Shown: piece after piece, positions 23,160 through 58,462 of the stretch
Layout: each line of letters starts with the position of its first letter
Position numbering within the stretch: position 1 is the first letter of the stretch
Assembly (NCBI GenBank): GCA_902625215.1
Contig: CACOAO010000001.1
Location: 159,712 to 223,711 of the forward strand
Length of the DNA stretch: 64,000 nt
Origin: an uncultured SAR116 cluster alpha proteobacterium
Lineage (GTDB): Bacteria; Pseudomonadota; Alphaproteobacteria; Puniceispirillales; Marisalimonadaceae
Direction of reading: 5' to 3'
The notes under the pieces: generated by a model
The model's input: only the letters and a program-made list of their open reading frames with translations
Databases searched by the model: none
Told to the model about the DNA's origin: nothing
Position numbers and translations under genes: made by a program

Positions 23160-23160
23160 T

Positions 23161-23565: not shown

Positions 23566-23567
23566 AA

Positions 23568-26400: not shown

Positions 26401-27143
26401 TATATCTTTCTATGTGGTTTGAATTTATTCAAATAACCCATATATTCTTTATTTCTTGGTAATGCATAAGATCCAACCTTACTGGTTTTAATTTTTAATT
26501 TAATTAAACTTTCTGCCAATACTACTGCAGAAGAAACTCCTTCAATGACTGGTAATTTATGTTTTGTTTCTAACTTTTCTGCCAGATCAGCCATGCCAGC
26601 ACATCCTAAAATGATAGCCTCTGCATTATCTTTTTCTATAGTATTTTGAATTCCTTTACTTAATTTATCTAGTTGTTTACCTGAAATATTTTCCAAATCT
26701 AGAACTGGAACGTCAATGGCAGTAACTTTGACACAATTTTCAAAAAGACCATATTTTTTCAAGTTATGAGTTAACGGTCTAATAGATCTGGATAAAGTTG
26801 TTATCACAGTAAAATTACCTGCTACCATAGTTGCAACATGATATGCTGCTTCTCCTATACCTAATACAGGTTTTTCTGTAATAGATCTTACTACCTCCAA
26901 ACCTGTGTCATCAAAACATGCAATAATAAACGCGTCAGCGTCATCGTTCTTTCTTATCTCTTCGACCAGACCAGGAATACAAAAAGCTTCATCATAAAAA
27001 CCTTCAATGCTCTCAGGACCAACATTTGGTTGAACAGAAATAATCTCAGTATCTACATTTGCAAACTTCTTGGCAGTTAAATCTATTTTATGCGTCATTG
27101 CTTTAGTGGTATTAGGATTAATTATACAAATTGTTCTTTTCAA
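26400..27143 (-). CDS. Hydantoin/allantoin racemase (Asp/Glu racemase superfamily), both catalytic Cys present
   Basis: ICIINPNTTKAMT; Cys76 in FIIACFDDTG; Cys181 in IILGCAGMADL. Stop/start overlap TAATG with upp. Confidence 0.88.
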   Translation of the reverse strand: MKRTICIINPNTTKAMTHKIDLTAKKFANVDTEIISVQPNVGPESIEGFYDEAFCIPGLVEEIRKNDDADAFIIACFDDTGLEVVRSITEKPVLGIGEAAYHVATMVAGNFTVITTLSRSIRPLTHNLKKYGLFENCVKVTAIDVPVLDLENISGKQLDKLSKGIQNTIEKDNAEAIILGCAGMADLAEKLETKHKLPVIEGVSSAVVLAESLIKLKIKTSKVGSYALPRNKEYMGYLNKFKPHRKI

Positions 27144-35359: not shown

Positions 35360-36712
35360 ATGTCAAGATTTTTAATTAAAAATGCTAGTTTCATTGCAAC
35401 GATGGACGATAACAGAACAGAGATTTTTAACAAATCCATATATTGTGAAGATGGAGAGATCGTTGACATTGGAGATCTTAAAAACTTTAATTACAAACCT
35501 GAAATAGTCATTGATGCATTCGAGATGGTTGTCATACCAGGTTTGGTGAACACACATCACCACTTATTTCAAAATTTAACACGTTGTTACCCAGGTTCCC
35601 AAAATGAATCGTTATTTGGGTGGCTTACAAATTTATATCCTATTTGGAATAAAATTTTACCATCTGATATCTATATATCAACTTTGATAGGATTATCTGA
35701 AATGGTTATTAGTGGGTGCACAACATCTAGCGATCATTTATATTTATTTCCCAATGGATCAAAGCTTGAAAATCAGATTGAAGCTGCGGGGGAGGTTGGT
35801 TGCAGATTTCATGCAACAAGAGGATCTATGAGTATAGGAGTAAGTAAGGGTGGACTTCCTCCAGACACACTGACTGAAAATGAAAGCTCAATTGTAAAAG
35901 ATTGTCAGAGAGTTGTAGAAGAATTTCATGATCCTTCTAAATTTTCAATGTTAAAAATAGGTTTGGCGCCATGTTCTCCTTTTAGTGTTAGTCACGATTT
36001 AATGAAGGAAACTGCTAAATTAGCTAGAAGTTATTCTGTTAGTATGCATACACATTTGGCAGAAAATGATGAAGATATAATTTATACAAAAGAAAATTTT
36101 GGTATGACCCCAGGTCAGTATATTGAAGAACTAGGTTGGGTCGGGGATGATGTTTGGCATGCCCATTGTGTTAAATTAGATAAAGATGAAATTGAATTGT
36201 TTTCTAGAACGGGTACTGGTATTGCTCATTGTCCTTGTTCAAATATGAGATTAGCTAGTGGGATAGCTCCATTGAGAATGTGGATAGATAAGGGTGTAAA
36301 AGTAGGCTTAGGGGTGGATGGTTCAAGTTCAAATGATAGTGGTCATCTCCTTAATGAAGCTCGTCAAGCAATGTTATTACAAAGAGTTAATTTAGGTGCG
36401 AATAAATTTTCACCTAGAGAAGCATTATACACAGCAACAAGGGGTGGTGCGAAAGTATTAAACAGAAATGACATTGGACAGATTTCTGTTGGTAAAGCAG
36501 CTGATTTTGCAATATATGACTTGAACAAAATTTCTTTGTCTGGAGGCTGGAGCGACCCTTTAGCTGCCCTAATATTGTGTTCACCAATGGAAACGGCCTT
36601 CACAATTTGCAATGGAAAGATAATTTCTCAAAATGGTCATTTAAATAATTTTGATCTTAATTTATCTTTAGAAAAACATAAGGTTGCATCAAAAAGATTA
36701 TTAGATTTATAA
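35360..36712 (+). CDS. 8-oxoguanine deaminase-like amidohydrolase
   Basis: VIPGLVNTHHHLFQNLTRCYPGSQNESLFGWL; RGSMSIGVSKGGLPPD; SMHTHLAENDED; GLGVDGSSSNDSGHL. Confidence 0.82.
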   Translation: MSRFLIKNASFIATMDDNRTEIFNKSIYCEDGEIVDIGDLKNFNYKPEIVIDAFEMVVIPGLVNTHHHLFQNLTRCYPGSQNESLFGWLTNLYPIWNKILPSDIYISTLIGLSEMVISGCTTSSDHLYLFPNGSKLENQIEAAGEVGCRFHATRGSMSIGVSKGGLPPDTLTENESSIVKDCQRVVEEFHDPSKFSMLKIGLAPCSPFSVSHDLMKETAKLARSYSVSMHTHLAENDEDIIYTKENFGMTPGQYIEELGWVGDDVWHAHCVKLDKDEIELFSRTGTGIAHCPCSNMRLASGIAPLRMWIDKGVKVGLGVDGSSSNDSGHLLNEARQAMLLQRVNLGANKFSPREALYTATRGGAKVLNRNDIGQISVGKAADFAIYDLNKISLSGGWSDPLAALILCSPMETAFTICNGKIISQNGHLNNFDLNLSLEKHKVASKRLLDL

Positions 36713-37219
36713 AGTTATGAACCTTGTCTCATTCTTAGTAAAATTATACTCTTTTAAATTAATAGAAGAATCTTCTTGATCATTTATTCTGTCAACCACC
36801 CAAAAATCTTGTTTCTTTTTAACCAAAAGAGGATGGTGCCAAATATTTTTATTGTATGTAATACCAGTATCCCCATTTACATGGAAACATCTTAACGTAT
36901 TTAAATCTGGTAATTCATTCTTTTCTTCACTAACAACTATCAACCAATCATAATTTTGGATAGGAAGAAAACTCTGCGAAGCAACAGGATGCTTTTCCAT
37001 TATCTTGATTTCTATAGGTAGATCCCTGGGAGTACCAGAAAAGATAGAAATACTAGAATTTCCATTTTTACTTTCTAAATCAAGTTCGGAAATATTATGA
37101 TACCTAGTAGTGGTGCCTTGATTGATAGAACGTAATTCTAATGCATTCTTTTTTTCTACAATCTTACCAAATTTTGAAAAAACATTAGCATCTAATTGTT
37201 CGATTGAAATATTATTCAT
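36707..37219 (-). CDS. allA: Ureidoglycolate lyase
   Basis: SIFSGTPRDLPIEIKIMEKHPVASQSFLPI; FHVNGDTGITYNKNIWHHPLL. Confidence 0.88.
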   Translation of the reverse strand: MNNISIEQLDANVFSKFGKIVEKKNALELRSINQGTTTRYHNISELDLESKNGNSSISIFSGTPRDLPIEIKIMEKHPVASQSFLPIQNYDWLIVVSEEKNELPDLNTLRCFHVNGDTGITYNKNIWHHPLLVKKKQDFWVVDRINDQEDSSINLKEYNFTKNETRFITL

Positions 37220-37220
37220 T

Positions 37221-38213
37221 TTATAATCTTAAACCAAAAACCCTTAGTCTTGATACCCCTCCATCAGGATAAATATTCAATCTTACATGAGTAACACCTT
37301 CAGTTGACTTGTCATCAATTTCGTAATTATGTATACTATCAGCTTGAAGTTTTGATTTCTTTAAGATGTATTTCCAGTTCTCTGAGTAGTTTATAATTTC
37401 CTTTGAATCTGCATGTTCACTAATATTTGAGACTTGAATAGACGCTTGATCTGGGAAATTTCCTTTAAAATGAGCGGTATCTATTTCAATTTTTTTTATT
37501 AAACCTTTTGTCGCTAATTCAATTATAATCCAGTCATGACCAGGTTCTCTTCTTCTTCTTGTTTCCCAACCATCACCCATTGTTTTTCCCCTTCCATCAG
37601 ATAGAAGAGCAGATACGTCACCATAATGAGCATTATTGTAAGCAACAATAGATCCACCTAACTTTAAAGATGATAATTCAATTAGATCATTTTTGTTATC
37701 ATAAATATCCCAATTATGTTTTACGTCACCGAACAATCTTAATCTTGCAACTCCACCATCAGGAAAAATTTGTAATTTTATATAATTAACTTTTCTTTTT
37801 GACAGAGGCTTAAATTTATTGCTGGAATCTCCTTTTAAAGGTGTTTTAGAGAGTATTTCAATCCATTTTGAATTTTTATTAGGTTTTTGATCACTATACA
37901 AACCTTCAATTGAAGCAAATGGTGGAAAATTACCAGTAAAAAAACTCGTATCAATATCTATCTCAGAAATAATTCCTGGAGATCCCAATTCTATTATAGC
38001 CCAATCATTGCCACCATCTCTTCTTCTTTTGCTCTCCCATCCATCCATCCACTTTCCGTGCTCATCATATTTATCTTCAATGAAAACTGGTTCTTTATCA
38101 TTTAGCATTCGTGAAGCTTCACCAAAGAAATCGTCAGAAACTTCAACTATCTTTGTACCAATTTTTGGAGATGCCAAATTAGTTAAAATTTGATTTGTGT
38201 TATTTGTATTCAT
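37221..38213 (-). CDS. alc: Allantoicase
   Basis: Two homologous repeats: KWMDGWESKRRRDGGNDWAIIELGSPG and TMGDGWETRRRREPGHDWIIIELATKG, each followed by (F)TGNFPPFASIEG / FKGNFPDQASIQV and PDGGV(A/S)RLR(L/V)FG. Confidence 0.95.
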   Translation of the reverse strand: MNTNNTNQILTNLASPKIGTKIVEVSDDFFGEASRMLNDKEPVFIEDKYDEHGKWMDGWESKRRRDGGNDWAIIELGSPGIISEIDIDTSFFTGNFPPFASIEGLYSDQKPNKNSKWIEILSKTPLKGDSSNKFKPLSKRKVNYIKLQIFPDGGVARLRLFGDVKHNWDIYDNKNDLIELSSLKLGGSIVAYNNAHYGDVSALLSDGRGKTMGDGWETRRRREPGHDWIIIELATKGLIKKIEIDTAHFKGNFPDQASIQVSNISEHADSKEIINYSENWKYILKKSKLQADSIHNYEIDDKSTEGVTHVRLNIYPDGGVSRLRVFGLRL

Positions 38214-38231
38214 TTTTGATTCCTATTAAAT

Positions 38232-39638
38232 TTAAAGCATACAAAAATCTCTAGAAATATATTTTCCTAAATTTTTGTTAACTACAAACTCATTATGATC
38301 GTAAATTTTATTCCCCCTCAACCAAGTTTGTATAGGCCATCCAGTAATATCTAAACCTTCATAGGGGGTATAATCTGAACCATGACTTAGATTAATTTGT
38401 TCAATTTTATTTTTTTTGTTGGGATCCCAAATTGTTATATCGGCATCAGATCCAACTTTAATTGATCCTTTTTGAGGGTAGAGACCATACATTTTGGCAG
38501 GATTTGTAGAAGTTAGCTCTACAAATCTTTCTAAGCTAATTCTGTTTTTACTTACTCCTTCTGAAAATAAAATTGGAAGTCTTGTTTCTACTCCTGGAAT
38601 ACCATTTGGAACCCACTTAAATGATGTTCTAGCCCCAGGCCTATCTTTGCCCTTAGTGTCTTTAAACCGAAATGGACAATGATCAGATGAAAAGATATCA
38701 AAAGTTCCATCAATTAATCCTTCCCAAATGGCTTTTTGACTTTCTAGATCTCTAGGTGGAGGAGAGCATACATATTTTGCTCCTTCAAAGTCCATGTTAA
38801 GTCCCTTCATATCATCTTCAGTTAAACAAATATATTGGGGGCAAGTTTCAGAAAAAATCTTTATTCCTCTTTTTTTAGCCCATTTAATTTGAGAAAGTGC
38901 TTCTTCTCCTGAAACATGAACAATAACAATTGGGATATCTACTATTTGCGCATGACTGATAGCTCTATGTGTTGCTTCTCTTTCTACAATCTGAGGCCTA
39001 GATAAACCATGATAATAAGGGGCTAATTTCCCCTCATCTTCTAATTTTTTTGTTAGAAATCTTATTGCATCATATCCTTCAGCATGGACCATAACTAATG
39101 TTTTTTCTTTTTTGGCTACTTCAAAAACTTTTAATAACTCCTCATCATTCAAAACTAGATCATCATATGTCATGAAAACTTTGAACGATGTATATCCATC
39201 TCTAGCTAGTGCAGGTAGCTCTTGTCCTAAGACTTGAGGTGATGGATCGCTTATTATCAAGTGAAACGAAGTATCTACAAATAAATTACCATTGGCCTTT
39301 TTATGATACTCTTCAACACATTCTCTAAGAGATTTTCCTTTTTCTTGCATGGCAAAAGGTAAAACTGTGGTGTTTCCCCCAGCTGCAGCTGATTTTGTTG
39401 CACTTTGAAAGTTGTCAGCCATCTCAACGTCAGCTCCTGATGGTTGATCTATATGGACATGTGCATCTATGCCCCCGGGTAGGACCAATAAATTTGAAAC
39501 ATCCTCTACAATTGTTGCTTTAGCGTTGATTTTACCTATTTCACAAATTTTTCCATTAGTTACAGCAATATCACATTCTTCAACTTTACTTCCAATAACT
39601 GTTTTTCCGTTTTTGAAAATTACGTCAAAGTTTTGCAT
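38232..39638 (-). CDS. Dihydropyrimidinase / D-hydantoinase / allantoinase-type cyclic amidohydrolase
   Basis: VLPGGIDAHVHIDQPSG; YTSFKVFMTYDDL (carbamylated Lys region); HAEGYDAI; SDHCPFRFKDTKG. Confidence 0.88.
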   Translation of the reverse strand: MQNFDVIFKNGKTVIGSKVEECDIAVTNGKICEIGKINAKATIVEDVSNLLVLPGGIDAHVHIDQPSGADVEMADNFQSATKSAAAGGNTTVLPFAMQEKGKSLRECVEEYHKKANGNLFVDTSFHLIISDPSPQVLGQELPALARDGYTSFKVFMTYDDLVLNDEELLKVFEVAKKEKTLVMVHAEGYDAIRFLTKKLEDEGKLAPYYHGLSRPQIVEREATHRAISHAQIVDIPIVIVHVSGEEALSQIKWAKKRGIKIFSETCPQYICLTEDDMKGLNMDFEGAKYVCSPPPRDLESQKAIWEGLIDGTFDIFSSDHCPFRFKDTKGKDRPGARTSFKWVPNGIPGVETRLPILFSEGVSKNRISLERFVELTSTNPAKMYGLYPQKGSIKVGSDADITIWDPNKKNKIEQINLSHGSDYTPYEGLDITGWPIQTWLRGNKIYDHNEFVVNKNLGKYISRDFCML

Positions 39639-39655
39639 AAAGTATTCTCCAATAA

Positions 39656-40879
39656 TTATTTATTCTTTAAATTATTAACACTCAGATAAAGTTGATTAAT
39701 CAAATATCTTTCATGCTCTTCAAGCATTGATATGTTGCCTGGAGGCATAGCATATGATAACACAGACTGCTTATATATATTATCAATATTGTTAATTATA
39801 TCTATAGATGTTTCTAATTTGACTAATTTTGGTGCATATCTCATGTTATCCCAAAGTGGCTCTTGTGCATGACACATAGCACATTTTGCAGTAATAATTT
39901 CCTTTGCGCTTATCAAAGTTTTTTTTGGTATTTTTTCTATTATTAAAGCAGTATCCTTAATTTGGTTCATCTTTGGTTTTCCCAAGTCTGAAATATAAAA
40001 TATTAATGATGCTAATATTATTATTGGAAATGAGACCCAATAAGGTGCTTTAGCACCAGTATGCTTTACATTAAAGAAATGTCTAATTAATGCACCAATA
40101 ATTAGAATTATTGAAATTATTATCCAGGAATATTCTGTAGCATAAATAAGTGGATAATGATTTGATATCATTATGAATATTACTGGGAGAGTTAAATAGT
40201 TATTATGAAGAGAACGTTGTTTTGCAATTGCTCCATGAATTGGGTTAGGAGTATCATTTGCTAGTAAACTTGCGACAACTTTTTTTTGACCAGGTATGAT
40301 TATCATTAAAACGTTTGCAACCATTATGGTGCCTAATACAGTTCCTATTTGCATGAAAGCACCCCTATAACTAAATATTTCAGAATAAATCCAAGACATT
40401 GCAGTTATCAAAACAAACACAGAACCTATCAGAACGTATACATTTGTTTTAAGAGATATCCTGCACATTGCATCATAAACTACCCATCCAAAAATTATGC
40501 CTAATATGGAAATTATAACAGCTTCATATTTTTCCAGATCATATTTTAAAATATCAATCATATACAATTCAGCACCTGCATAATAAATAAGAGCTAATAA
40601 GGCAAAACCTGAAACCCAAGTTGCATAAGCTTCCCATTTAAACCAGGTCAATTCTGACGGCATTTTTGATGGAGCAACTAGATATTTTACTAGGTGGTAA
40701 AAACCTCCACCATGAACTTGCCAAGCTTCACCGTGTGATTTATCGGGAAGATTTTTACTTTGTCTTAGGCTTAAATCTAGTGCAATGAAATAAAAGCTTG
40801 AACCAATCCAAGCAATACCTGCTATAACATGGAACCATCTTAAAACTAGCTCAGTCCATTCTTGAAATAGATATAACAC
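39656..40879 (-). CDS. puuD: Membrane urate hydroxylase with C-terminal cytochrome c domain (PuuD-type)
   Basis: N-terminal TM domain (RWFHVIAGIAWIGSSFYFIALD; HGGGFYHLVKYLVAPSKMPSELTWFKWEAYATW); heme site CAMCHAQEPLWDNM. Confidence 0.9.
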   Translation of the reverse strand: MLYLFQEWTELVLRWFHVIAGIAWIGSSFYFIALDLSLRQSKNLPDKSHGEAWQVHGGGFYHLVKYLVAPSKMPSELTWFKWEAYATWVSGFALLALIYYAGAELYMIDILKYDLEKYEAVIISILGIIFGWVVYDAMCRISLKTNVYVLIGSVFVLITAMSWIYSEIFSYRGAFMQIGTVLGTIMVANVLMIIIPGQKKVVASLLANDTPNPIHGAIAKQRSLHNNYLTLPVIFIMISNHYPLIYATEYSWIIISIILIIGALIRHFFNVKHTGAKAPYWVSFPIIILASLIFYISDLGKPKMNQIKDTALIIEKIPKKTLISAKEIITAKCAMCHAQEPLWDNMRYAPKLVKLETSIDIINNIDNIYKQSVLSYAMPPGNISMLEEHERYLINQLYLSVNNLKNK

Positions 40880-41229
40880 TAACTACCTCTATACGTGCTG
40901 TAACCAAAGGGAGATAATAATAATGGGACATGGTAATGTTCAGATTTATTATTTACATAAAACCTTATTGGAATTTTATCTAGGAAAATATATTTCAAAT
41001 CACTATTATGTTTTTTTAAATAATCACCAGCAAAAAATAATAATTCATAATGAATTTCATCTAAATCTTTAGCGGACAATAATGGTTCATTTATCCTACC
41101 ATCTTCATTTGTAAAAACAGTTTTGATTAAAATTCTTTCTGTATTCAGTAATTTGTATAACTCAATTTTTAGTTTGACTGCAGGTTTCCCTTTGCTTGTA
41201 TCTAAAACATGAGTTGAAAGACCTGCCAT
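40879..41229 (-). CDS. uraH: 5-hydroxyisourate hydrolase
   Basis: LSTHVLDTSKGKPAVKLKIELY; HYHVPLLLSPFGYSTYRGS C-terminal signature. Confidence 0.95.
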   Translation of the reverse strand: MAGLSTHVLDTSKGKPAVKLKIELYKLLNTERILIKTVFTNEDGRINEPLLSAKDLDEIHYELLFFAGDYLKKHNSDLKYIFLDKIPIRFYVNNKSEHYHVPLLLSPFGYSTYRGS

Positions 41230-41289
41230 ATATTTCTCTATTCAAATTTATATAAAATATGCTTAAATATAATAATGTCAGGTGAAATA

Positions 41290-41811
41290 ATGTACAATAA
41301 AACTTTTAAATTTCTTTCTCAAAAAATGGAAGGAAAAAAAATTATAAATCTTCTTGAAGAGATTTATGAGCATTCTGCTTGGGTTCCAGAAAAACTATTA
41401 TCTGAGAATATTAGTGAGATTAAAACAAAAGAAGAATTAAAATTAATGATGAAAAAAATTGTTGATAATTCAACAGAAACAGAAAAATTAAATCTAATCA
41501 AAGCCCATCCCGAATTAGGGAAAAAACTTCAAAAAAAAGAAAAACTTACAAAATTTTCTAAAGAAGAACAAAAGTCTGCAGGCTTAGACCAATGCACAGA
41601 TGAAGAATTTGAAATTTTAACTAATCTTAACAATAGATATAGATCAAAGTTTGAATTTCCATTTATACTTGCAGTTAAGGGTTTAAATAAAAACCAGATC
41701 ATTGATAATATGAAAAAAAGAGTGAATAACAGCAAATCTGAAGAATTTAAGACTGCAATTAATGAAATTCATAAAATAGCTCAACTTAGAATTAAAGATT
41801 TGACTTATTAA
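41290..41811 (+). CDS. uraD: OHCU decarboxylase
   Basis: EHSAWVPEKLL; KAHPELGKKL; SAGLDQCTDEEFEILTNLNNRYRSKFEFPFILAVKG. ATG 41290 has AGGTGA upstream and is preferred to 41275. Confidence 0.93.
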   Translation: MYNKTFKFLSQKMEGKKIINLLEEIYEHSAWVPEKLLSENISEIKTKEELKLMMKKIVDNSTETEKLNLIKAHPELGKKLQKKEKLTKFSKEEQKSAGLDQCTDEEFEILTNLNNRYRSKFEFPFILAVKGLNKNQIIDNMKKRVNNSKSEEFKTAINEIHKIAQLRIKDLTY

Positions 41812-42812: not shown

Positions 42813-43562
42813 ATGAAAATATTACTGTATAATCCTAACACTTCTGTATCTATAACCGAAAAACTTTATGAAACTGCTAAGTTAGTAATTAGCAGGGATA
42901 CAAACCTAATTCCCAAAACAGCAGAAAAGGGTTTCCCTTATATTTCAACTAAAGTTGAAGCACAAATTACAGGTACTTTAGTCTTAGAAAAAATAGCAGA
43001 AATACACTCACAGTATGATGCGATAATTATAGCTGCCTTTGGCGACCCAGGTTTGGTTCCAGCAAAAACGTTGTTTAATTTACCTATAATTGGACTAGGC
43101 GAAGCAGCCATGTTAAGTGCTTGTCTATTTGGTAAAAAATTCTCTATTATCTCATTCACGAATGCAATGGCCTCATGGTATGAAGAAAGTGTTGAATTAC
43201 TTGGGTTACAATCCAGATATGCAGGATTTAGAGCTATAGATGGTGTTAATCTAACAATAGATAAAATCCAATCACTTCAGAAGAAATCTTTAGTTGAATC
43301 TGCTAAAAATGCCATCACTATCGATGGTGGTGAAGTAGTAATTTTTGCTGGAGCTCCATTGTCTGGGTTTAAAAAAATTGTTCAAAAAGAAATTAGTGTG
43401 CCTATAATTGATTGCGCAGAAGCAGCTGTAAAACAAGCAGAATTAGCTGTGGTTATGAACCAAAATACAATAAATAAACACAAATTACCTCCTAAATCGT
43501 CTATTGGAGTTGAAAAAAAATTATCACAATTAATATCGCATAAAGTCGATAATGGTACATAA
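42813..43562 (+). CDS. Asp/Glu/hydantoin racemase superfamily protein lacking both catalytic Cys
   Basis: LLYNPNTSVSIT; IIAAFGDPGL; LPIIGLGEAAM; catalytic Cys positions are Ala75 and Gly180. Confidence 0.8.
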   Translation: MKILLYNPNTSVSITEKLYETAKLVISRDTNLIPKTAEKGFPYISTKVEAQITGTLVLEKIAEIHSQYDAIIIAAFGDPGLVPAKTLFNLPIIGLGEAAMLSACLFGKKFSIISFTNAMASWYEESVELLGLQSRYAGFRAIDGVNLTIDKIQSLQKKSLVESAKNAITIDGGEVVIFAGAPLSGFKKIVQKEISVPIIDCAEAAVKQAELAVVMNQNTINKHKLPPKSSIGVEKKLSQLISHKVDNGT

Positions 43563-47427: not shown

Positions 47428-49497
47428 ATGAGACTTGCTATTGATATTGGCGGAACTTTTACAGATATAGTTTTAGAAGACGAAACTAATCTTTTCACTA
47501 AAAAAGTGCTTACTTCTTCCTCGGAACCTGAAGTTGCAGTAATTCAAGGCGTAGTAGAACTTTTACAAGAAAATAAAATCAATGCTTCAGATATAAAGAT
47601 GATTTTACATGGTACGACTTTAGCAACAAATGCAGTAATTGAAAGAAAAGGTGCAAAGACTTGTTTTATTACTACTGAGGGTTTCAGGGATGTTTTAGAT
47701 ATTGGTTATGAAAGTAGGTTTGATCAATATGACATACTTATTGAAAAAACAATGTCACTTGTTCCAAGAAAGCATAGATATGTAATAGAAGAAAGAACTG
47801 ATATTAATGGAAATATAATTAAGCCCATTAACACCCAAAAATTTCAAAGTTTAGTTGATATAATTAAAAATGAAAAATTTGAAAGTATTGGGATTGGCTT
47901 TCTACATTCCTATGCTAATTCTAAAAATGAAAATAAATTAAAAGAATTTTTATTAAAATATTTACCAGATGTAGAGGTAAGTATATCTTCTGATGTCTGC
48001 CCAGAAATAAGAGAATATGAACGTTTTACTACTACTGTAGTAAACTCCTACATAAAACCTTTAATTTCTACATATTTAAAAAAATTAGATATTGAATTAA
48101 GGAAAAAAGGATTTAATTGCCCACTTTTATTGATGACCTCTGGAGGAACTTTAACTAATGTAATAAGTGCATGTAACAATCCAGTAAGATTAGTTGAATC
48201 AGGTCCTGCAGGTGGTGCTATTTTGGCAACATCTATTGCTGAAGATTTGAAATTAGATAAAGTAATATCATTCGATATGGGTGGGACAACAGCCAAGATT
48301 ACCATAATTGAAAATCAAAAAGCAATTAAAGCACGAGAATTTGAAGTTGATAGAAAAGCTAGATTTAAAAAAGGAAGTGGGCTACCTCTTCGAATTCCCG
48401 TAATTGAAATGGTAGAAATTGGTGCAGGAGGTGGATCAATAGCTCGGGTAAATAAGTTGGATCAAATAATTACTGGACCGGATAGTGCTGGCTCAAACCC
48501 TGGCCCAGCATGCTATTCTAACGGCGGTAATAATCCAACAATTACTGATGCAGATTTAGTAATAGGGAAGATTCATCCTGATAAATTTGCTGGGGGTAAA
48601 ATAAACCTATCCAAAGAATTTGCTAAAAATGCAATTACACAAAATGTTGGTGATAAGCTTAATATAAAAACTGAAACGGCCGCATTAGCAATATCTGAAA
48701 TTGTAGATGAAACCATGTCGAACGCAGCAAGAGTCCACACTGTTGAACAAGGTCATGAAACATCAAACAGAACTCTTATCGGATTTGGGGGGGCTGCACC
48801 CCTTCATATATCTAGAGTTGCAGAAAAACTAAGAGTAAAAAAAATAATTATCCCTACAAATGCAAGTGTTGGATCAGCAGTTGGCTTTTTAAAAGCTCCT
48901 GTTGGATACGAAGTGGTTAAAAGTCTTAGAATGTTATTAAATAAATTGAATACTGAAAAAGTTAATAATTTACTAGCATCAATGAGAGATGAAGCTGAAA
49001 AAATTATACAAAACAAGTCCGAAAATACAGAGTACATTGAAGAACGTTTTGCATTTATGCGTTATGCTGGGCAAGGACACGAAATTAAAGTTCCTATAGA
49101 TATGGAGGCATTGTCTGCCAGAGATACAAACAAAATTAAAGGCTCTTTTGAAGCAAATTACGAAAAATTATATTCTAGAATACTGCCAAATGCAGATATA
49201 GAAATTTTAACTTGGTCTCTATCATTATCTATTAAAGACGAGAAATCAACTGAATATCTAGAACTAGATTCTTATAAAAACATAAAAGAAACCTCTTTAG
49301 TAGATTTCTGTGATTATGAAAGTGGAGAAAAAATTAAAATACCAAATTATGAAAGAATAAATTTAAATCCGGGAGATTTGATAAATGGTCAATGTATAAT
49401 TACGGAAGATCAAACTACAATAGTTGTTTCTAACAATTTTAACACAAAAGTTTTGAGTAATAATTTTTTGCAAATGGAATATATAGACAATGAATGA
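47428..49497 (+). CDS. hyuA: Hydantoinase/oxoprolinase family protein, HyuA-type subunit
   Basis: RLAIDIGGTFTDIVLED; HGTTLATNAVIERKGAKTCFITTEGFRDVLDIG; SFDMGGTTAKI; IGAGGGSIARV; PGPACY. Confidence 0.93.
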   Translation: MRLAIDIGGTFTDIVLEDETNLFTKKVLTSSSEPEVAVIQGVVELLQENKINASDIKMILHGTTLATNAVIERKGAKTCFITTEGFRDVLDIGYESRFDQYDILIEKTMSLVPRKHRYVIEERTDINGNIIKPINTQKFQSLVDIIKNEKFESIGIGFLHSYANSKNENKLKEFLLKYLPDVEVSISSDVCPEIREYERFTTTVVNSYIKPLISTYLKKLDIELRKKGFNCPLLLMTSGGTLTNVISACNNPVRLVESGPAGGAILATSIAEDLKLDKVISFDMGGTTAKITIIENQKAIKAREFEVDRKARFKKGSGLPLRIPVIEMVEIGAGGGSIARVNKLDQIITGPDSAGSNPGPACYSNGGNNPTITDADLVIGKIHPDKFAGGKINLSKEFAKNAITQNVGDKLNIKTETAALAISEIVDETMSNAARVHTVEQGHETSNRTLIGFGGAAPLHISRVAEKLRVKKIIIPTNASVGSAVGFLKAPVGYEVVKSLRMLLNKLNTEKVNNLLASMRDEAEKIIQNKSENTEYIEERFAFMRYAGQGHEIKVPIDMEALSARDTNKIKGSFEANYEKLYSRILPNADIEILTWSLSLSIKDEKSTEYLELDSYKNIKETSLVDFCDYESGEKIKIPNYERINLNPGDLINGQCIITEDQTTIVVSNNFNTKVLSNNFLQMEYIDNE

Positions 49498-51118
49498 GAA
49501 TAATTTAATTGATGATAAAAATAATATTCAAAATCAAGTTATGTGGAATAGACTTCTTTCTGTTGTTGAAGAACAAGGCCAAACACTAGTAAGAACGGCA
49601 TTTAGTCCAATAGTTCGTGAATGTGGAGATATATCGGCTGGAGTATTTGATTTAGAAGGTAGAATGATGGCTCAAGCAGTTACAGGTACTCCAGGTCATG
49701 TTAATTCTATGGCAGAGTCAGTAAAGCATTTTATTGATCATTTCCCATTAAACACTATGAATGAAGGAGACATATTTATCACAAATGATCCGTGGATGGG
49801 AACAGGGCATTTAAACGATTTTGTATTAACCACCCCTTGTTTCAAAGACAACAAAATAGTTGGTCTTTTTTCATGTACATCTCATTTGACTGATATTGGA
49901 GGATTAGGGGTAGGTCCTGATGCTACGGACATACACATGGAAGGTTTTTATATACCTATGTTGAAATTAGCTGACAGAGGTGTGATGAATAAAACATTAT
50001 TAAAATTAGTTAGTCAAAATACTAGACAGCCAATAGAAACAGAAGGAGATGTTTACTCATTGGCTGCATGTAATGACATAGGCTGCAATAGATTAGTTGA
50101 AATGATGAAAGAATTTGAAATTGATGATTTAAAAAATCTTTCTGATTTTATATATGACAAGTCATTATTAGCCGTAGAAAATGAAATTAAAAAAATTCCG
50201 AATGGTTTATATAAAAATTCTATGATGATAGATGGATTTGAAAAGGATATAAAATTAGAGGCTAAACTAACAGTCTCAGATAAATCAATTTCAGTTGATT
50301 ATACAGGCACCTCTGACAAATCTAAGTTTGGTATAAATGTTCCACTTTCATATACTAAGGCTTATACTTGTTTTGGTTTAAGTTGTCTTGTAAGTGCAGA
50401 AATACCAAATAATGCAGGCTCTCTAAAACCATTTGAAATTGATGCGCCATTGGGTTCTATTTTAAACGCTCCTTATCCTGCTGCAGTATGCGCAAGACAT
50501 ATTATTGGTCAAATGCTTCCGGATGTTGTGTTTGGTTGTTTAGAAAAAGCCATACCGGAAAAAGTTCCTGCAGAAGGGGCTTCTTGTTTATGGAACATTA
50601 CATTTCGTGGAAAGACTGATAGGGGAGCTAACAACAACAAATTGTTTGCAGTTACTGCTGTAGTTAATGGTGGAACAGGAGCAAGGCCAAACAAAGATGG
50701 TTTATCTGCTACTGCCTACCCTTCAGGTGTTAAAGGAACTCCAGTCGAAATTAATGAGGCAGTTGCTCCATTATTGTTTCTTAAAAAAGAATATAATCCA
50801 GGAAGTGGTGGAAAAGGAAAGTATAATGGAGGATTAGGTCAAGTAATAGAAATTAAATCAGCAATTGATGAGGATATGGATCTTTTGGCTTCTTTTGATA
50901 GAATCAAATTTCCAGCGAGAGGTCGTTTAAATGGAAGAAACGGTAAATCTGGGAAAGTCTCAATTAAAGGTAAAGGAAATTTAAATGGCAAGGGTACACA
51001 ACTTATTAAAGCAGGTGATATCCTTCAAATATATACACCTGGAGGTGGAGGCTTAGGTGAATACTCTGAAAGAGAACAAGCTCTATTAGATAAAGATTTA
51101 GAGAACGAATTTTTATAA
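49490..51118 (+). CDS. hyuB: Hydantoinase B/oxoprolinase family protein, HyuB-type subunit
   Basis: VVEEQGQTLVRTAFSPIVRECGDISAGVFD; ITNDPWMGTGHLNDFVLTTPCF; YTPGGGGLGEYSER. Overlaps hyuA by 8 nt. Confidence 0.93.
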   Translation: MNENNLIDDKNNIQNQVMWNRLLSVVEEQGQTLVRTAFSPIVRECGDISAGVFDLEGRMMAQAVTGTPGHVNSMAESVKHFIDHFPLNTMNEGDIFITNDPWMGTGHLNDFVLTTPCFKDNKIVGLFSCTSHLTDIGGLGVGPDATDIHMEGFYIPMLKLADRGVMNKTLLKLVSQNTRQPIETEGDVYSLAACNDIGCNRLVEMMKEFEIDDLKNLSDFIYDKSLLAVENEIKKIPNGLYKNSMMIDGFEKDIKLEAKLTVSDKSISVDYTGTSDKSKFGINVPLSYTKAYTCFGLSCLVSAEIPNNAGSLKPFEIDAPLGSILNAPYPAAVCARHIIGQMLPDVVFGCLEKAIPEKVPAEGASCLWNITFRGKTDRGANNNKLFAVTAVVNGGTGARPNKDGLSATAYPSGVKGTPVEINEAVAPLLFLKKEYNPGSGGKGKYNGGLGQVIEIKSAIDEDMDLLASFDRIKFPARGRLNGRNGKSGKVSIKGKGNLNGKGTQLIKAGDILQIYTPGGGGLGEYSEREQALLDKDLENEFL

Positions 51119-51123
51119 TTAAT

Positions 51124-51825
51124 TTAAATTGGTATTCCAAAATTTCTATTAGGTTTAGCAACATATTTTTTTATTTTTAAATCTAATTTAGCAAAATTTT
51201 CCATCAAAGCTGTAGCAGCTGTAACCCCTTCAATAATTTGTATGTTGAACTTTTTACTTAAATTTTTTGATAAATTATAAATACCTGGGCTAGTTATTAT
51301 TATAGCCTCCGGCTCTTCTTCCGTAATTGTTCTTTGAATTTCGTTATCTAATTTAATCAGGTTAGATTTTGACATTGTATCCATATCTAATACAGGAACT
51401 TCAATTGATTTTATAGATACACACTTGTGGTCCATATCATATTTTATTAAATTATTTTTTAAAGCTTCATGTGAATTAGATAAATTGGTAATCACTGAAA
51501 ATTTATTTGCAATTATATTAGCGGTATAAAAAGAGGCTTCACCTAAACCAATTACTGGTTTTGATGTAATTTTCCTAATTGTCTCAACGCCAATATCTTC
51601 AAAAGAAATAATAATGAATGCGTCTGAAGAATTATTTTTTTCAACTACTTTAAGTAATTTTGAAATATTTATCGTTTCACTGTATAGATCAAAATAGTCT
51701 TGAGAGTTTTGTTTATCGATTAAAATACTAGTATGTTTATCACTTATTTTTAAAGCACAATTCTTAATCTTTTCATTTGAAATAGCTGAGAGGTAAGGAT
51801 TGATAATGCAAATTTCAATGCTCAA
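51124..51825 (-). CDS. Hydantoin racemase superfamily protein, both catalytic Cys replaced by Ser
   Basis: EICIINPYLSAIS; Ser74 in FIIISFEDIG; Ser179 in IIITSPGIYNL, same 105-residue spacing as Cys76/Cys181 of the 26400-27143 paralog. Confidence 0.82.
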   Translation of the reverse strand: MSIEICIINPYLSAISNEKIKNCALKISDKHTSILIDKQNSQDYFDLYSETINISKLLKVVEKNNSSDAFIIISFEDIGVETIRKITSKPVIGLGEASFYTANIIANKFSVITNLSNSHEALKNNLIKYDMDHKCVSIKSIEVPVLDMDTMSKSNLIKLDNEIQRTITEEEPEAIIITSPGIYNLSKNLSKKFNIQIIEGVTAATALMENFAKLDLKIKKYVAKPNRNFGIPI

Positions 51826-51836: not shown

Positions 51837-54182
51837 CTATTTATTCAGGATTATAGGTTTATTAAAAATTGTAATTTCTGGTAATTCTTTAGTATATTTT
51901 TTTATTTCAACTAAAGTAGAATGAGCAGACGGTCCTTGGGCAAGAGATGATGTACCAATATCTTCTGTCAAAACATTAGGGTTCCCATGTATGCAAAAAG
52001 CACCATCGTCTACTGGATCATACCAAGCACCCACAGGAAGAAAAACAACTCCTTGCATAACTTCTTCAGTAATTACAACTCCAGCTAAGCACTTGCCTCT
52101 TTTATTAATTACCTCAACAATATCACCATTTTCCAATCTTCTTGTTTGAGCATCATGCGGATGAATTTTTATTGGTTCTCTACCTCTTATTTTTTCTTTT
52201 TGGCTTTCATAACCATTATCAAGTTGACTATGCAATCTATTATGGGGTTGCCCTGATATAAGTTGAAGTGGGAATTGTTTTGTTAAATTTGATCCTAGCC
52301 ACTCATTTTGTTCTAACCAAGCTGGATGACCAGGACAGTCCTTATAATTGAAACTATCAATTGTTTCAGAAAAAATTTCTATTTTTCCTGATGGAGTAGA
52401 AATAGGATTATTTTCTGGATCAATTCTAAACTCTTCTAACAAAATATTTTGTTTTTTCGGAGATAAAACTTCTTGAAATCCATTTTTCCAAAATTTATCA
52501 AATTCAGGCAAAGTAAATCCCTCTTCTTTAGCTTTGTTTTTTGCTTCTTCCCAAATAAATCTTAACCATTTGTCTTCGTCTTTACCTTCAGTAAATTTGT
52601 CTTTGAAATTTAATTTAGAAGAAATTTCAGAAAAAATTTCATAATCTGATTTTGCCTCTCCTACCGGTTCAATTGCTTTATGCATTGGTGAAATAGTTTG
52701 ATCCCAATGTTTAATGCTAATGTCATTTCTTTCTAGTGAGGTTGTCGTTGGTAATATTATGTCTGAATGTCTTGCAAGACTATTCCACCAGATTTCATTA
52801 ACAATTATTGTGTCTGGTTGTTTGAAAGCTTTTATTAGTTTTTTTAAGTTCATCTGATGATGAAACGGATTACCACCTGCCCAATATACTAATTTTATAT
52901 CTGGATATTTAATTTCTTTTCCATTATATGGAAAAATTTTTCCTGGTTGTAATAGCATATCTGAAAATCTAGCTACCGGAATAAAGTCAGAAACAGGGTT
53001 TTTGAATTGCTCTAAAGAGGGCCATTTAAAATGTTGAACTGGATTTCCAATGCCGTTTTCTGCACTGTATCCAAGACCAAAACCTCCACCAGGAAGTCCT
53101 ATTTGTCCTAGCATACAGGCAAGAACAGTTATCATCCAGTGTGGTTGTTCACCATACTGTTGCCTTTGCAGGGCCCAAGCCCCAGTAATCATCGTTCTAT
53201 TTGAAGACATTTTTTTTGCTATATTATAGATTGTATTACTTGGAATACCTGTAATCTTAGAAGCCCAGAATGGTGTCTTAGCCTTCCCATCTGAAATACC
53301 CTTTAAGTATTGAACAAATTTGTCGTATCCAACACAATATTTATTCAAAAATTCTCTATCTGCCAGACTTTCTGTTTCCAAAATGAATGCAATGCTGAGC
53401 ATTAAAGCTGTATCAGTTCCAGGTCTGATTTTAATCCATTCAGCTTTACTTATTATATCAGCCTCCATTTCCATAGGACTAATATTGATAAACTCTATAC
53501 CCTTCAGCACACATTTTTTTATATAATCTCTGGTTGTATGTTTTCCAACTCCTCCAGAATTTACCTGAGCATTTTTTAAAGGTAATCCACCAAACATAAC
53601 TATTAATTCAGAATTATCTCTAATATTATTCCAATCAGTATGAGTATCAAGAAATTGTCGATATGACATACCAATCACATGAGGCATAATTGTTTCACTT
53701 GCTGCATAAGAGTACGTATTAATTGATTTGGTATATCCACCATAACAGTTAAAAAATCTATGTAGTTGACTTTGGGCATGGTGAAATCTTCCAGCAGAAC
53801 CCCACCCATAGGAGCCAGCGAAAAAGGCTTTATTTTTGTACTTTTTTTTGACCCTGTTTAGCTCAAAAGCAACAATATCAATTACTTCTTCCCAGCTAAC
53901 CGCTACAAAATTATCTGAACCTCTTTTTTCTCTACTTCGCTTTCCAGTCAGAGACATTTTACTATTTGCTAATTCTTTACGTATGTCTCGAAGATAACCT
54001 TTCCGAACATGTGGTACTCTTATTCGTAATTCATCGTCAATACTGTTGATAATACCATTAGCTATCTTTGAAGGGTCTTTATCATTTTCGTAAGGACGCA
54101 TACTGACAATTTTTTCATTTTCTACTTCAGCATAGTAACTACCCCAATGGAATGACGTTGGTTTTTTTGTTTTGCTTGGCAT
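51837..54182 (-). CDS. Molybdopterin-dependent S/N-oxide reductase, DMSO reductase family (BisC-like), no apparent Tat signal
   Basis: SYGWGSAGRFHHAQSQLHRFFNCYGGYT; NTYSYAASETIMPHVIG; GGNPFHHQMNL; ISGQPHNRLHSQLDNG; lacks N-terminal 4Fe-4S Cys motif. Confidence 0.87.
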   Translation of the reverse strand: MPSKTKKPTSFHWGSYYAEVENEKIVSMRPYENDKDPSKIANGIINSIDDELRIRVPHVRKGYLRDIRKELANSKMSLTGKRSREKRGSDNFVAVSWEEVIDIVAFELNRVKKKYKNKAFFAGSYGWGSAGRFHHAQSQLHRFFNCYGGYTKSINTYSYAASETIMPHVIGMSYRQFLDTHTDWNNIRDNSELIVMFGGLPLKNAQVNSGGVGKHTTRDYIKKCVLKGIEFINISPMEMEADIISKAEWIKIRPGTDTALMLSIAFILETESLADREFLNKYCVGYDKFVQYLKGISDGKAKTPFWASKITGIPSNTIYNIAKKMSSNRTMITGAWALQRQQYGEQPHWMITVLACMLGQIGLPGGGFGLGYSAENGIGNPVQHFKWPSLEQFKNPVSDFIPVARFSDMLLQPGKIFPYNGKEIKYPDIKLVYWAGGNPFHHQMNLKKLIKAFKQPDTIIVNEIWWNSLARHSDIILPTTTSLERNDISIKHWDQTISPMHKAIEPVGEAKSDYEIFSEISSKLNFKDKFTEGKDEDKWLRFIWEEAKNKAKEEGFTLPEFDKFWKNGFQEVLSPKKQNILLEEFRIDPENNPISTPSGKIEIFSETIDSFNYKDCPGHPAWLEQNEWLGSNLTKQFPLQLISGQPHNRLHSQLDNGYESQKEKIRGREPIKIHPHDAQTRRLENGDIVEVINKRGKCLAGVVITEEVMQGVVFLPVGAWYDPVDDGAFCIHGNPNVLTEDIGTSSLAQGPSAHSTLVEIKKYTKELPEITIFNKPIILNK

Positions 54183-54222
54183 AAATACCTCTTAAAACAA
54201 TAGATTAGATCTTTAATTGTTT

Positions 54223-57177
54223 TTAGTAAATTATATTTTCATCCATAAACTTAGCTAGATGAACAGCTTCTCTATTAAGTCCATCTTTAATCTGACACCT
54301 ACATGATGTTCCGTCGGCAATAACAATTACGTCATTTGCATTATTTTTAATTGTTGGGAAGAGCCTTTCATTAGCCATTTTCATTGAAATATCGTAAGTA
54401 TCTTTACCATAACCAAATGAACCTGCCATACCACAACAACTAGTCTGGATATTTTCTACTTCTAACCCTTCAATTTTATTTAATAAATTCTCAATAGGTT
54501 TGACAGCATCAAAAGCTTTTTGGTGGCAATGACCATGAAGTAGAACTTTTTTGTTTAAACTTCTAAATTTTATTTTTTTACTTTTCTTAAATAGTAATTC
54601 TTCAAATGTGTAAGAATTCTTTTTTAAGTATTCAGTATCTTCACTTTTAATTAAACTAGGGATTTCGTCTCTAAATGAAAGTATGCATGATGGCTCCAAG
54701 CCAACAACCGAAATTCCCTGCTTTAGGTATGGCCTAAAAGCATTTAATATATTCAACATTTCTTTTTTAGCATTATCTATTAAACCATTGCTTAAATAGG
54801 TTCTACCACAGCAAAGTATTTTTCTTGAATTTGATAATGTTGGGATAAATGGATAATATCCTGCTTTTTTTAAAACATTAATTGCGGATCTAACATTTTC
54901 TGGTTCGTAATACCTATTGAAAGTATCAACAAACAAAATTACTGGAGTAGTATTTTTAACTTTATTTATATTATTTGGTAATTCATTATTTTTAAAATAA
55001 TCTCTTCTCCATTTAGGAAGAGGCCTCTTAGATGTAAAACCAAAAAGTACCTCGCTAAGTTTTGCCAGTCCTGGTAATTTATCTCTTAAGTTCATAATTA
55101 AAGCAAAATTTGACGCTACCGGAGCATAGTAAGGAAGGAATGCTACAAGTTTACTATTTATGTCTAAACCAAATTTTTTTGTTCTTAAAGACGATATTTC
55201 AATTTTCATTTTTGACATATCAACACCAGTAGGGCATTCACGTTTGCATGCTTTACAAGAAACACAAAGTTTCATGGTATCATTCATTTTTTCATTTATT
55301 AAAGCGTCTTCTCCAAGTTGCCCTGAAAGTGCCAATCTAAGAGAATTAGCTCTTCCTCTTGTAGAATCTTTTTCATCTTTAGTTACTCTAAAAGACGGAC
55401 ACATTACACCACCATCTAATTTTCTACATGAGCCATTATTGTTACACATTTCAATGGCCCCTTGGAAACCACCACTAGTGCCTGTCCAAGAAGACCAATC
55501 TAGAATTGTATTAATGTTTTGAGCATTATAAGAAGGTGCATATCGAAAAAGACTCCTGCTATCTAATTTTGGAGCATCTACAATTTTTCCTGGATTAAAA
55601 ATATTAAATGGATCAAATGAATTTTTAATAATTTTAAAGATGTTAATCATTTTTTTACCAAACATTACCTCATTAAATTCAGAACGGGCAATACCATCAC
55701 CATGCTCACCGGAATAAGAACCTTTAAATTTTTTGACTAAAGAACTTGTTTCATTAGCAATACTTCTCATTTTTTGCACGTCTTCTTGAATTTTCATGTT
55801 TAAAACAGGTCTGACATGTAAACAACCAACCGAAGCGTGAGCATACCAAGTGCCCTTTACATTGTATTTGTCAAAAATTTTATTTAATCCATCGGTATAT
55901 TCTGCTAAATCTTTAAGCTCTACCGCACAGTCTTCAATGAACGAAACTGGTTTTGCATCGTCTTTCATTGACATCATAATATTCAAACCAGATTTTCTCA
56001 TTTCACTAACCTTTGACTGAAGGTTATCATTAATGACATCAATGACACCCCCATTTTTCTTGCTTTTATTCCAAGAATATCCAAGATCTCCCATTAGTTG
56101 ATGGAGTTTTTTTAATCTACGGTGGTTCTCATCCATATCCTCTTCTGCAAACTCAACAAGAAGTAGAGATTTTGGATTACCGTTTACGACAGCTTCTACA
56201 GTAGGTTTGAACATATCAATTTTTTGGGCTAGGCTTATCATAGTATCATCCACTAATTCGACAGCAACCGGGTTTAATGGCACAATATGCTGAGCAGTAT
56301 CCATTGCTTCGTAAAAGGATGGAAAATGACATACACCCATTATTTTTTTTGAAGGAAGTGGAGACAATTTAAGAGTGATTGCAGATGAATAAGCAAGCGT
56401 TCCTTCGGATCCGACCAACAAGTGAGACAAATTTATTCCGTCACCAACTTTGCCATAAGGTCTGCTAGCCATAGCGTCAGGTAGTAACGCCTCAATATTA
56501 TAACCACCAACTCTTCTTAGAACATTAGGAAATTTATCCAGAATTTCTTTTCTATTATCAATAGCTAGCTTTTGAAGATTATTAATAATTTCAGGTGCCA
56601 CTCCATTACTAAGTGGAAGACTATTATTTTCTATTTTTCCAAAATTATAAGTTGATCCGTCAAATAAAATTGCTTCAATTTCAATAACATTATCTCTCAT
56701 CATACCATATCTTATTGATCTACCACCACAACTATTATTACCTGTCATACCTCCAATTGTAGCTCTACTTGAAGTTGATACATCAACTGGAAACCACAAA
56801 CCATATGGTTTTAAAAAACGATTGAGTTCGTCCAATACAATTCCAGGTTCAACAACACAAATCATACTTTCTTTGTCAAATTCCAAAACTTTGTTTAGGT
56901 ATTTTGAATTGTCAACCACTATTGCATTATTAACAGTCTGACCACACTGCGAGGTACCACCACCCCGTGCAAGTATTGGGACTTTACTTTCTCGAGCATA
57001 ATTAATTGTCTCGATTAAGTCTGATTTTGATTTAGGTATTAAAACTCCATATGGCATCATTTGATAAATTGACGCATCAGTAGCATATCTACCTTTATTA
57101 AAATTATCAGAGTAAACTTCTGCAGAAGTTTTTTTCTCTAATGTGTTAAGTAATTGATCGATATGACCATCTGGCAT
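54223..57177 (-). CDS. Fused FAD-binding / Fe-S oxidoreductase (GlcD-GlcF / D-lactate dehydrogenase-like)
   Basis: ILARGGGTSQCGQTV; VDVSTSSRATIGGMTGNNSCGGRSIRYG; CVSCKACKRECPTGVDM; HGHCHQKA; TSCCGMAGSFGY. Confidence 0.92.
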   Translation of the reverse strand: MPDGHIDQLLNTLEKKTSAEVYSDNFNKGRYATDASIYQMMPYGVLIPKSKSDLIETINYARESKVPILARGGGTSQCGQTVNNAIVVDNSKYLNKVLEFDKESMICVVEPGIVLDELNRFLKPYGLWFPVDVSTSSRATIGGMTGNNSCGGRSIRYGMMRDNVIEIEAILFDGSTYNFGKIENNSLPLSNGVAPEIINNLQKLAIDNRKEILDKFPNVLRRVGGYNIEALLPDAMASRPYGKVGDGINLSHLLVGSEGTLAYSSAITLKLSPLPSKKIMGVCHFPSFYEAMDTAQHIVPLNPVAVELVDDTMISLAQKIDMFKPTVEAVVNGNPKSLLLVEFAEEDMDENHRRLKKLHQLMGDLGYSWNKSKKNGGVIDVINDNLQSKVSEMRKSGLNIMMSMKDDAKPVSFIEDCAVELKDLAEYTDGLNKIFDKYNVKGTWYAHASVGCLHVRPVLNMKIQEDVQKMRSIANETSSLVKKFKGSYSGEHGDGIARSEFNEVMFGKKMINIFKIIKNSFDPFNIFNPGKIVDAPKLDSRSLFRYAPSYNAQNINTILDWSSWTGTSGGFQGAIEMCNNNGSCRKLDGGVMCPSFRVTKDEKDSTRGRANSLRLALSGQLGEDALINEKMNDTMKLCVSCKACKRECPTGVDMSKMKIEISSLRTKKFGLDINSKLVAFLPYYAPVASNFALIMNLRDKLPGLAKLSEVLFGFTSKRPLPKWRRDYFKNNELPNNINKVKNTTPVILFVDTFNRYYEPENVRSAINVLKKAGYYPFIPTLSNSRKILCCGRTYLSNGLIDNAKKEMLNILNAFRPYLKQGISVVGLEPSCILSFRDEIPSLIKSEDTEYLKKNSYTFEELLFKKSKKIKFRSLNKKVLLHGHCHQKAFDAVKPIENLLNKIEGLEVENIQTSCCGMAGSFGYGKDTYDISMKMANERLFPTIKNNANDVIVIADGTSCRCQIKDGLNREAVHLAKFMDENIIY

Positions 57178-57289: not shown

Positions 57290-58462
57290 ATGAGTAAAAA
57301 ATATATGCCAGGAAAACATTTCCTTCAGTTACCAGGTCCCTCTAACGTTCCAGACAGAATTTTACGTGCAATGGATTATCCAACAATAGATCATCGTGGT
57401 CCTGAGTTTGCTAATTTAGCCCAAAATTGCATTGAAGGTATGAAGTCTATATTTAAAACTAAATCTAATGTGATTATTTTTCCTGCTTCAGGAACTGGTG
57501 CGTGGGAGGCAGCACTCGTTAATACAGTAAGAGAAGACGATTTGGTTCTTATGGTGGAAACAGGACATTTTGCATCTTTATGGAATAAAATGGCACTTAG
57601 ACTTGGAATAAAAACTGAGTTTTTGGAGACTGACTGGAGAAGAGGTGTTGTACCGGAAAAACTTTTTTATAGATTGCAAAAAGATACAAAAAAACAAATT
57701 AAAGCAGTATGTGTGGTGCATAATGAGACATCTACTGGTTGTGCTTCAAGAATTGATGAAGTAAGGAAAACATTAAATTCAGCTAATCATGACGCTTTAT
57801 TGATGGTTGATACTATTTCAGGTTTAGCATCCATGGAATATAAACATGATGAATGGGGTGTTGATGTCACAGTATCCGGATCTCAAAAGGGGCTAATGTT
57901 ACCACCTGGATTATCGTTTAATGCAATATCAGATAAGGCATTAAAAATATCTAAAACGTCAGGCATGAGAAGATCATATTGGGACTGGGAAGAACAAATT
58001 GAAGCGAATAAATCAGGTTCTTTTCCTTATACACCAGCAACTAATCTATTATACGGATTAAAAGAAGCGATTAATATGCTTCACGAAGAAGGACTTGATA
58101 ATGTTTTTAAGAGACATGAAAAACACGCACTAGCAACGAGGACTGCTGTCCAAGCATGGGGACTTGAGATTGTATGCAAAGAAGAAAAGGATTTTTCAAA
58201 TGTTTTAACAGCTGTTATGCTACCAGAATATCATAATGCTGATAATCTACGAAAAATAATTTTAGAAAATTTTAATATGTCTTTAGGTAGTGGCCTTTCA
58301 AAACTTGCAGGAAAGGTTTTTAGAATTGGGCATCTTGGTGATTTTAATGATTTAATGTTGATGGGTACATTAAATGGAATAGAAATGGGTTTTGAAATGG
58401 CTGGTATACCTTACCAAAAAGGGGGAATTGCCAAAGCTTCACAGATCTTGGCTAATAAATAA
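57290..58462 (+). CDS. Serine--glyoxylate / alanine--glyoxylate aminotransferase family protein
   Basis: GKHFLQLPGPSNVPDRILRAMDYPTIDHRGPEFANL; FPASGTGAWEAAL; VTVSGSQKGLMLPPGLSF (PLP Lys). Confidence 0.9.
   Translation: MSKKYMPGKHFLQLPGPSNVPDRILRAMDYPTIDHRGPEFANLAQNCIEGMKSIFKTKSNVIIFPASGTGAWEAALVNTVREDDLVLMVETGHFASLWNKMALRLGIKTEFLETDWRRGVVPEKLFYRLQKDTKKQIKAVCVVHNETSTGCASRIDEVRKTLNSANHDALLMVDTISGLASMEYKHDEWGVDVTVSGSQKGLMLPPGLSFNAISDKALKISKTSGMRRSYWDWEEQIEANKSGSFPYTPATNLLYGLKEAINMLHEEGLDNVFKRHEKHALATRTAVQAWGLEIVCKEEKDFSNVLTAVMLPEYHNADNLRKIILENFNMSLGSGLSKLAGKVFRIGHLGDFNDLMLMGTLNGIEMGFEMAGIPYQKGGIAKASQILANK

Follow-up and report, generated by a model that had tools for sequence, protein, structure and literature searches.

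Natural replacement of one catalytic cysteine has been described for several relatives of the hydantoin and allantoin racemases. In the allantoin racemase AllR of Pseudomonas fluorescens, Glu78 reportedly stands in for the missing cysteine and the enzyme is still active. To our knowledge, every characterized active family member in which one cysteine has been replaced keeps the other thiol. The Asp/Glu racemases EcL-DER (Thr/Cys) and MMP0739 (Cys/Thr) naturally bear a hydroxyl residue at one catalytic cysteine position, retain the other cysteine, and are termed racemases; EcL-DER still functions as a one-way racemase (PMC8142540). In another superfamily, an epimerase becomes a dehydratase through a Cys-to-Thr exchange (PMC8142540). 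The related epimerase OpaE keeps 4.8% of its activity as the C90S variant, and both the C199S variant and the double Cys-to-Ser mutant retain ≤0.3% (PMC12661438). Arylmalonate decarboxylase, a superfamily member that performs non-racemase chemistry from a Cys-replaced active site, is defined by Gly74/Cys188 (PMC4996985). Closer to the organism considered here, published purine catabolism operons of SAR116 bacteria include an "allantoin racemase" with patchy distribution (PMC11698098).

We analyzed a stretch of 64,000 nucleotides (hereafter the window) from AAA536-G10, a genus of the SAR116 bacteria, which are abundant in the ocean. The genome of origin carries three genes of family PF01177, all within the window, which differ at the two catalytic positions: P2 is Cys/Cys, P1 is Ser/Ser, and P3 is Ala/Gly (Table 1). 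A function other than racemization is probable for P1.

Table 1. Features of the P1 locus and its paralogs, with positions in the window
Feature	Position	Strand	Basis or remark
Ser/Ser paralog P1, PF01177, 233 aa	51124..51825	-	ORF, Pfam, AlphaFold2, Foldseek
Ser74 codon of P1 (TCT), first catalytic Cys position	51604..51606	-	Sequence and alignment
Ser179 codon of P1 (AGC), second catalytic Cys position	51289..51291	-	Sequence and alignment
Cys/Cys paralog P2, presumably a genuine hydantoin/allantoin racemase	26400..27143	-	
Third paralog P3, Ala/Gly at both Cys positions	42813..43562	+	
BisC-family molybdopterin S/N-oxide reductase-like gene	51837..54182	-	11 bases upstream of P1
FAD oxidase/Fe-S fusion, YdiJ/GlcD-like 2-hydroxyacid dehydrogenase	54223..57177	-	First in presumed operon
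BhcA-like aspartate-glyoxylate aminotransferase	57290..58462	+	Divergent from operon
Purine/allantoin catabolism genes: ureidoglycolate lyase, allantoicase, D-hydantoinase/dihydropyrimidinase, PuuD urate oxidase, OHCU decarboxylase	36707..41811	.	
HyuA/HyuB hydantoinase/oxoprolinase pair	47428..51118	+	Convergent with P1

Family assignment and predicted fold of P1

Pfam places P1 in a single family, PF01177 (Asp/Glu/hydantoin racemase; 80 bits against a cut-off of 31), and no NCBIfam model matched it at E 0.001 or better. The start codon is TTG, as in all complete orthologs examined; P2 also begins with TTG (at 27143, compared with 51825 for P1). The AlphaFold2 prediction, made from an input of 30 sequences, has a pTM of 0.84 and a mean pLDDT of 83.6, with values below 50 confined to residues 40–51 and the C-terminal tail. 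When this model was searched with Foldseek, the top PDB match was the allantoin racemase 3qvk (TM 0.84/0.80, 27% identity), which is the top match by sequence as well. P1 is predicted to adopt the normal fold of the Asp/Glu racemase superfamily.

Ser74 and Ser179 align with Cys76 and Cys181 of P2, the spacing being 105 residues in both proteins, and with Cys79 and Cys184 of the Klebsiella allantoin racemase. A preliminary description of this DNA had proposed that both catalytic cysteines were converted to serine at unchanged spacing, and the alignments to P2 and to the Klebsiella enzyme agree.

The Klebsiella pneumoniae allantoin racemase HpxA (3qvj) shares with P1 both the fold and the two catalytic positions. 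By alignment, the HpxA chain of 3qvk/3qvl has serine at both positions (SFGDPG and GSGG in 3qvk), which is the Ser/Ser state of P1. Wild-type HpxA is Cys/Cys and displays the motifs NPN, SIEG, TTL, and GCGG, whereas P1 has NPY, no SIEG, TNL, and TS[PA]G. AllR (5lfd, 5lg5) resembles P1 in its fold, in the loss of the first catalytic cysteine, and in bearing an acidic residue three positions further on: in the aligned AllR sequence, Gly occupies the first cysteine position and Glu the +3 position. The corresponding residue of P1 is Asp77, but Cys/Cys enzymes likewise carry Asp there. AllR keeps its second cysteine (GCGG) where P1 has Ser179, a point on which P1 departs from the P. fluorescens type of allantoin racemase. 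Unlike EcL-DER and MMP0739, P1 has no cysteine at either site. Nor does it keep the Cys188 of arylmalonate decarboxylase; lacking the Gly74/Cys188 pattern and any match to the Amdase (PF17645) and AMDase-equivalog models, P1 does not fit that enzyme. Set against the hydantoin and allantoin racemases as a whole, P1 has the PF01177 domain and, by prediction, the fold, lacks the two cysteines, and carries Tyr11, Asn17, Phe/Tyr45, and Thr178 in place of the pocket residues Asn11, Thr17, Ile45, and Gly178.

Genomic context

The BisC-family gene adjoins P1 at every P1 locus where the contig extends that far. Two sister genera lack P1, and their BisC gene lies directly beside the genes for OHCU decarboxylase and PuuD; in four P1-bearing relatives (L049, L058, L064, L137) P1 is situated between BisC and these genes. 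The gene following P1 in the window and in L056 encodes HyuB. Within the genus, all BisC-bearing genomes have P1; P1 occurs without BisC only twice, both times at a contig end. This co-occurrence counts for little, since neighboring genes are trivially present or missing together when genomes are incomplete. Throughout the bacterial family, the pair formed by the FAD/Fe-S dehydrogenase and BisC-like genes (51837–57177, minus strand) is found beside purine catabolism genes. The window additionally encodes xanthine dehydrogenase, PuuE, and a TRAP transporter.

The paralogs have surroundings of their own. P2 neighbors genes for uracil phosphoribosyltransferase (UPRT) and an ABC transporter. P3 adjoins the allantoinase PuuE gene, and the two track together across the family; its Ala/Gly pair is invariant in 21 genomes, and the NPN...T motif is kept. 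We also observed that a block of malate dehydrogenase, DHDPS, AbrB, PrpF, and IPMDH genes borders a P1-type gene in L063 (8998–16657), and that the same block borders UPRT and P2 in the window (19099–25772), a rearrangement relative to L063.

Conservation and selection

Among 30 complete P1 orthologs, each from a different genome of genus AAA536-G10, 29 are Ser/Ser; the exception, L058 (genome G066), is Cys74/Ser179. A truncated P1 gene in G029 also has Ser179. Since 29 genomes concur, chance and sequencing error were ruled out as sources of the Ser/Ser state. The median pairwise dN/dS within the genus, roughly estimated by the Nei-Gojobori method on AT-rich genes, is 0.16–0.17 for P1, 0.13 for P2, and 0.12 for P3. 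P1 exceeds P2 in 75% of the genome pairs sharing both genes, and the excess is slight. P1 is thus under strong purifying selection, slightly looser than that on P2, and its reading frames are intact in 30 genomes. On these values and the open frames of the orthologs, a pseudogene or decayed gene was rejected. The preliminary description had argued against random decay, suggesting a search for a Ser/Ser clade and for relaxed selection (dN/dS near 1). That argument holds: alignment and tree recover such a clade, relaxed selection is absent, and the predicted fold is intact.

Changes in the putative substrate pocket

We compared P1 with 45 Cys/Cys relatives at the 29 positions where at least 95% of these relatives agree. 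Fixed changes in P1 comprise Asn11 to Tyr (once His), Met16 to Ser, Thr17 to Asn, Cys74 to Ser, Leu80 to Val, Gly130 to Asp, Gly178 to Thr, and Cys179 to Ser; Asn9, Pro10, Asp77, Gly79, Arg84, and Gly93 are retained. At position 45, the Ile of the SIEG motif is replaced by Phe or Tyr, and Thr114, at a less strictly conserved site, is replaced by Asn. Two residues past position 74, where Cys/Cys enzymes have Asp, Gly, or Arg, P1 has an invariant Glu76, followed by an equally invariant Asp77 that also occurs in Cys/Cys enzymes. By residue comparison, the active site of P1 has been rebuilt beyond the two cysteine swaps, with altered substrate-binding loops. The earlier statements that the rest of the fold was intact and the flanks conserved therefore need division. 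The fold itself stands by AlphaFold2, but the active-site surroundings do not, with Asn11, Thr17, Ile45, Gly130, and Gly178 replaced; outside the motifs then quoted, the active-site loops differ at many sites that are near-invariant in Cys/Cys enzymes.

Across 25 Ser/Ser rows, 17 pocket positions are 88% invariant, compared with 45% elsewhere (permutation p 5e-5), a test that is supporting only because the positions were hand-picked from family motifs with the family known beforehand. Taken whole, the active-site loops of P1 are no more conserved than the remaining protein; the pocket positions alone are. Loop 40–51, from which the SIEG motif has been lost, varies in sequence and is modeled at low confidence, in keeping with a pocket that has partly decayed. 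Every P1 protein has two cysteines elsewhere, Cys6 and Cys135, but since the Cys/Cys paralog P2 carries both (TICIINP, ENCVKV), they were ruled out as compensating at the catalytic site. A cysteine adjoining the second site appears in the sister genus only, one residue before it (LCTPG).

Origin by duplication and stepwise loss of the cysteines

In a tree of 73 homologs built with the catalytic columns left out, the P1-type proteins, including the Cys/Thr proteins of the sister genus, form one clade (SH-aLRT 100) nested in Cys/Cys racemases of the same SAR116 bacterial family (SH-aLRT 99). P1 therefore arose as a duplicate of a local SAR116 Cys/Cys racemase. The P1 genes of the sister genus (L063, L064) are Cys/Thr, with the LCTPG motif, and already have Tyr11 and Glu76 in place. 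Together with the Cys/Ser ortholog, they show that the change was stepwise and the two sites separable, contrary to the paired substitution envisaged at the outset.

The codon for Ser179 is AGY in every ortholog of the genus, which is compatible with a single origin, and that for Ser74 is TCT, TCC, or TCA, depending on the subclade. A tree of BisC and the FAD oxidase puts the Cys/Ser ortholog L058 inside the genus (97/98 for the group excluding the earliest Ser/Ser branch), so position 74 either reverted to Cys or lost it several times, and a clean order of loss at this residue is ruled out. The history of residue 74 may have involved one loss and a reversal (two steps) or about three separate losses. 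A rule by which Cys74 is kept where P2 is missing fits G064, G065, and G066 but is broken by G030, a 100% complete genome that is Ser/Ser yet without P2.

Cysteine-poor relatives in Alphaproteobacteria

Thirty class-level relatives found via P3 are distributed over six states: Ala/Gly (11), Cys/Gly (9), Cys/Cys (6), Val/Gly (2), Met/Gly (1), and Gly/Cys (1). Thiol loss is common in this part of PF01177. The rarity implied by the preliminary description was too strong, as cysteine-poor hydantoin-racemase relatives are common in Alphaproteobacteria. Within the same order, PF01177 proteins are Thr/Ser (L084:4734-5495, L085:4040-4831) and Ile/Gly (L082:4376-5152). The alphaproteobacterial Ala/Gly and Cys/Gly proteins are, like P1, PF01177 members without one or both thiols; they differ in keeping NPN...T, in not being Ser/Ser, and in occupying a separate branch. 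Cysteine-poor hydantoin-racemase-like proteins (Ala/Gly, Cys/Gly, Val/Gly, Met/Gly; L180–L207) are widespread in the class; L188 has a Gly/Cys gene next to an Ala/Gly gene, and L092 has one Cys/Cys and one Ala/Gly gene. The best 29 class-level matches to P1 from 385 sampled genomes included no Ser/Ser protein outside the genus, all being Cys/Cys. A scan of 84,980 species with search patterns specific to the P1 clade matched nothing but SAR116 contigs and alphaproteobacterial contigs with loose names.

Possible functions of P1

Judging by its residues, P1 cannot racemize by a two-thiol mechanism. Both thiols and several racemase-pocket residues are gone and a new set is fixed, which makes a repurposed, thiol-free pocket the most economical reading. 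We consider it reasonably likely that P1 is an ex-racemase of this kind, kept by selection, whose new pocket serves a metabolite of the purine/allantoin-to-glyoxylate route. A duplicate of a Cys/Cys racemase would have landed behind the FAD/Fe-S dehydrogenase-BisC operon in the common ancestor from which two sister genera descend. In that position the second thiol would have been lost first, to Thr or Ser, and the first thiol then to Ser in nearly all of AAA536-G10, with the Asn, Thr, and Ile markers of the racemase pocket disappearing along with the thiols. The resulting polar pocket would comprise Tyr11, Asn17, Ser74, Glu76, Asp77, Asn114, Thr178, and Ser179. P1 would most likely bind, or act thiol-free on, a small metabolite between purine/allantoin and glyoxylate, would no longer racemize hydantoins through two thiols, and may be functionally linked to BisC and the FAD enzyme. 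Counting against repurposing are the variable loop 40–51, a dN/dS slightly above that of P2, and Asp77, whose presence at the +3 position equivalent to AllR Glu78 makes proton transfer conceivable.

That last point bears on whether P1 could still be a racemase or epimerase, with Glu76/Asp77 and Ser179 or Thr178 replacing the thiols, perhaps acting on a substrate that is more acidic or otherwise different. We regard this as quite unlikely. The characterized active examples known all keep at least one thiol, the OpaE double Cys-to-Ser mutant is nearly dead, Asp77 is shared with Cys/Cys enzymes, and P1 has lost Asn11, Thr17, and Ile45; these points weigh against the invariance of Glu76 and Asp77, the Gly at the first cysteine and Glu at +3 of the P. 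fluorescens racemase, the frequency of Cys/Gly and Ala/Gly relatives with an NPN motif, and the one-way racemase activity of the Thr/Cys enzyme EcL-DER (PMC8142540). A catalytic version of the repurposing model, in which Ser74, Ser179, and Glu76 would form a thiol-free site at which an intermediate of the purine pathway is hydrolyzed, decarboxylated, or undergoes elimination, is rather unlikely. It draws on the invariant new polar residues, the purine/glyoxylate gene surroundings, and the conversion of an epimerase into a dehydratase by Cys-to-Thr exchange in another superfamily (PMC8142540), but we could identify no conserved arrangement of base or nucleophile in P1, and the one ortholog with Cys74 indicates that Ser74 is not strictly required. 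It is likewise doubtful that a Ser/Ser/Glu pocket performs a new reaction on such an intermediate, with the Cys/Cys, Cys/Thr, and Cys/Ser relatives in sister lineages recording the stepwise change toward it. Finally, the slightly higher dN/dS than in the paralogs, the variable loop 40–51, and the loss of two catalytic residues might mark a non-functional relic being lost, retained by chance or operon structure; with a dN/dS of ~0.17, intact frames in 30 genomes, and invariant new residues, this is highly improbable.

Implications

The two-thiol pair is treated as a superfamily signature, and homology annotation would label P1 a racemase. Published maps of SAR116 purine pathways record the presence or absence of an "allantoin racemase" (PMC11698098), and two of the three paralogs here are without the catalytic residues. 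Close relatives of P1 provide a natural series of Cys/Cys, Cys/Thr, Cys/Ser, and Ser/Ser proteins in which the fate of a former racemase site is directly testable. The wider cysteine-poor group (Ala/Gly, Cys/Gly) suggests that many database "hydantoin racemases" may not be two-thiol racemases.
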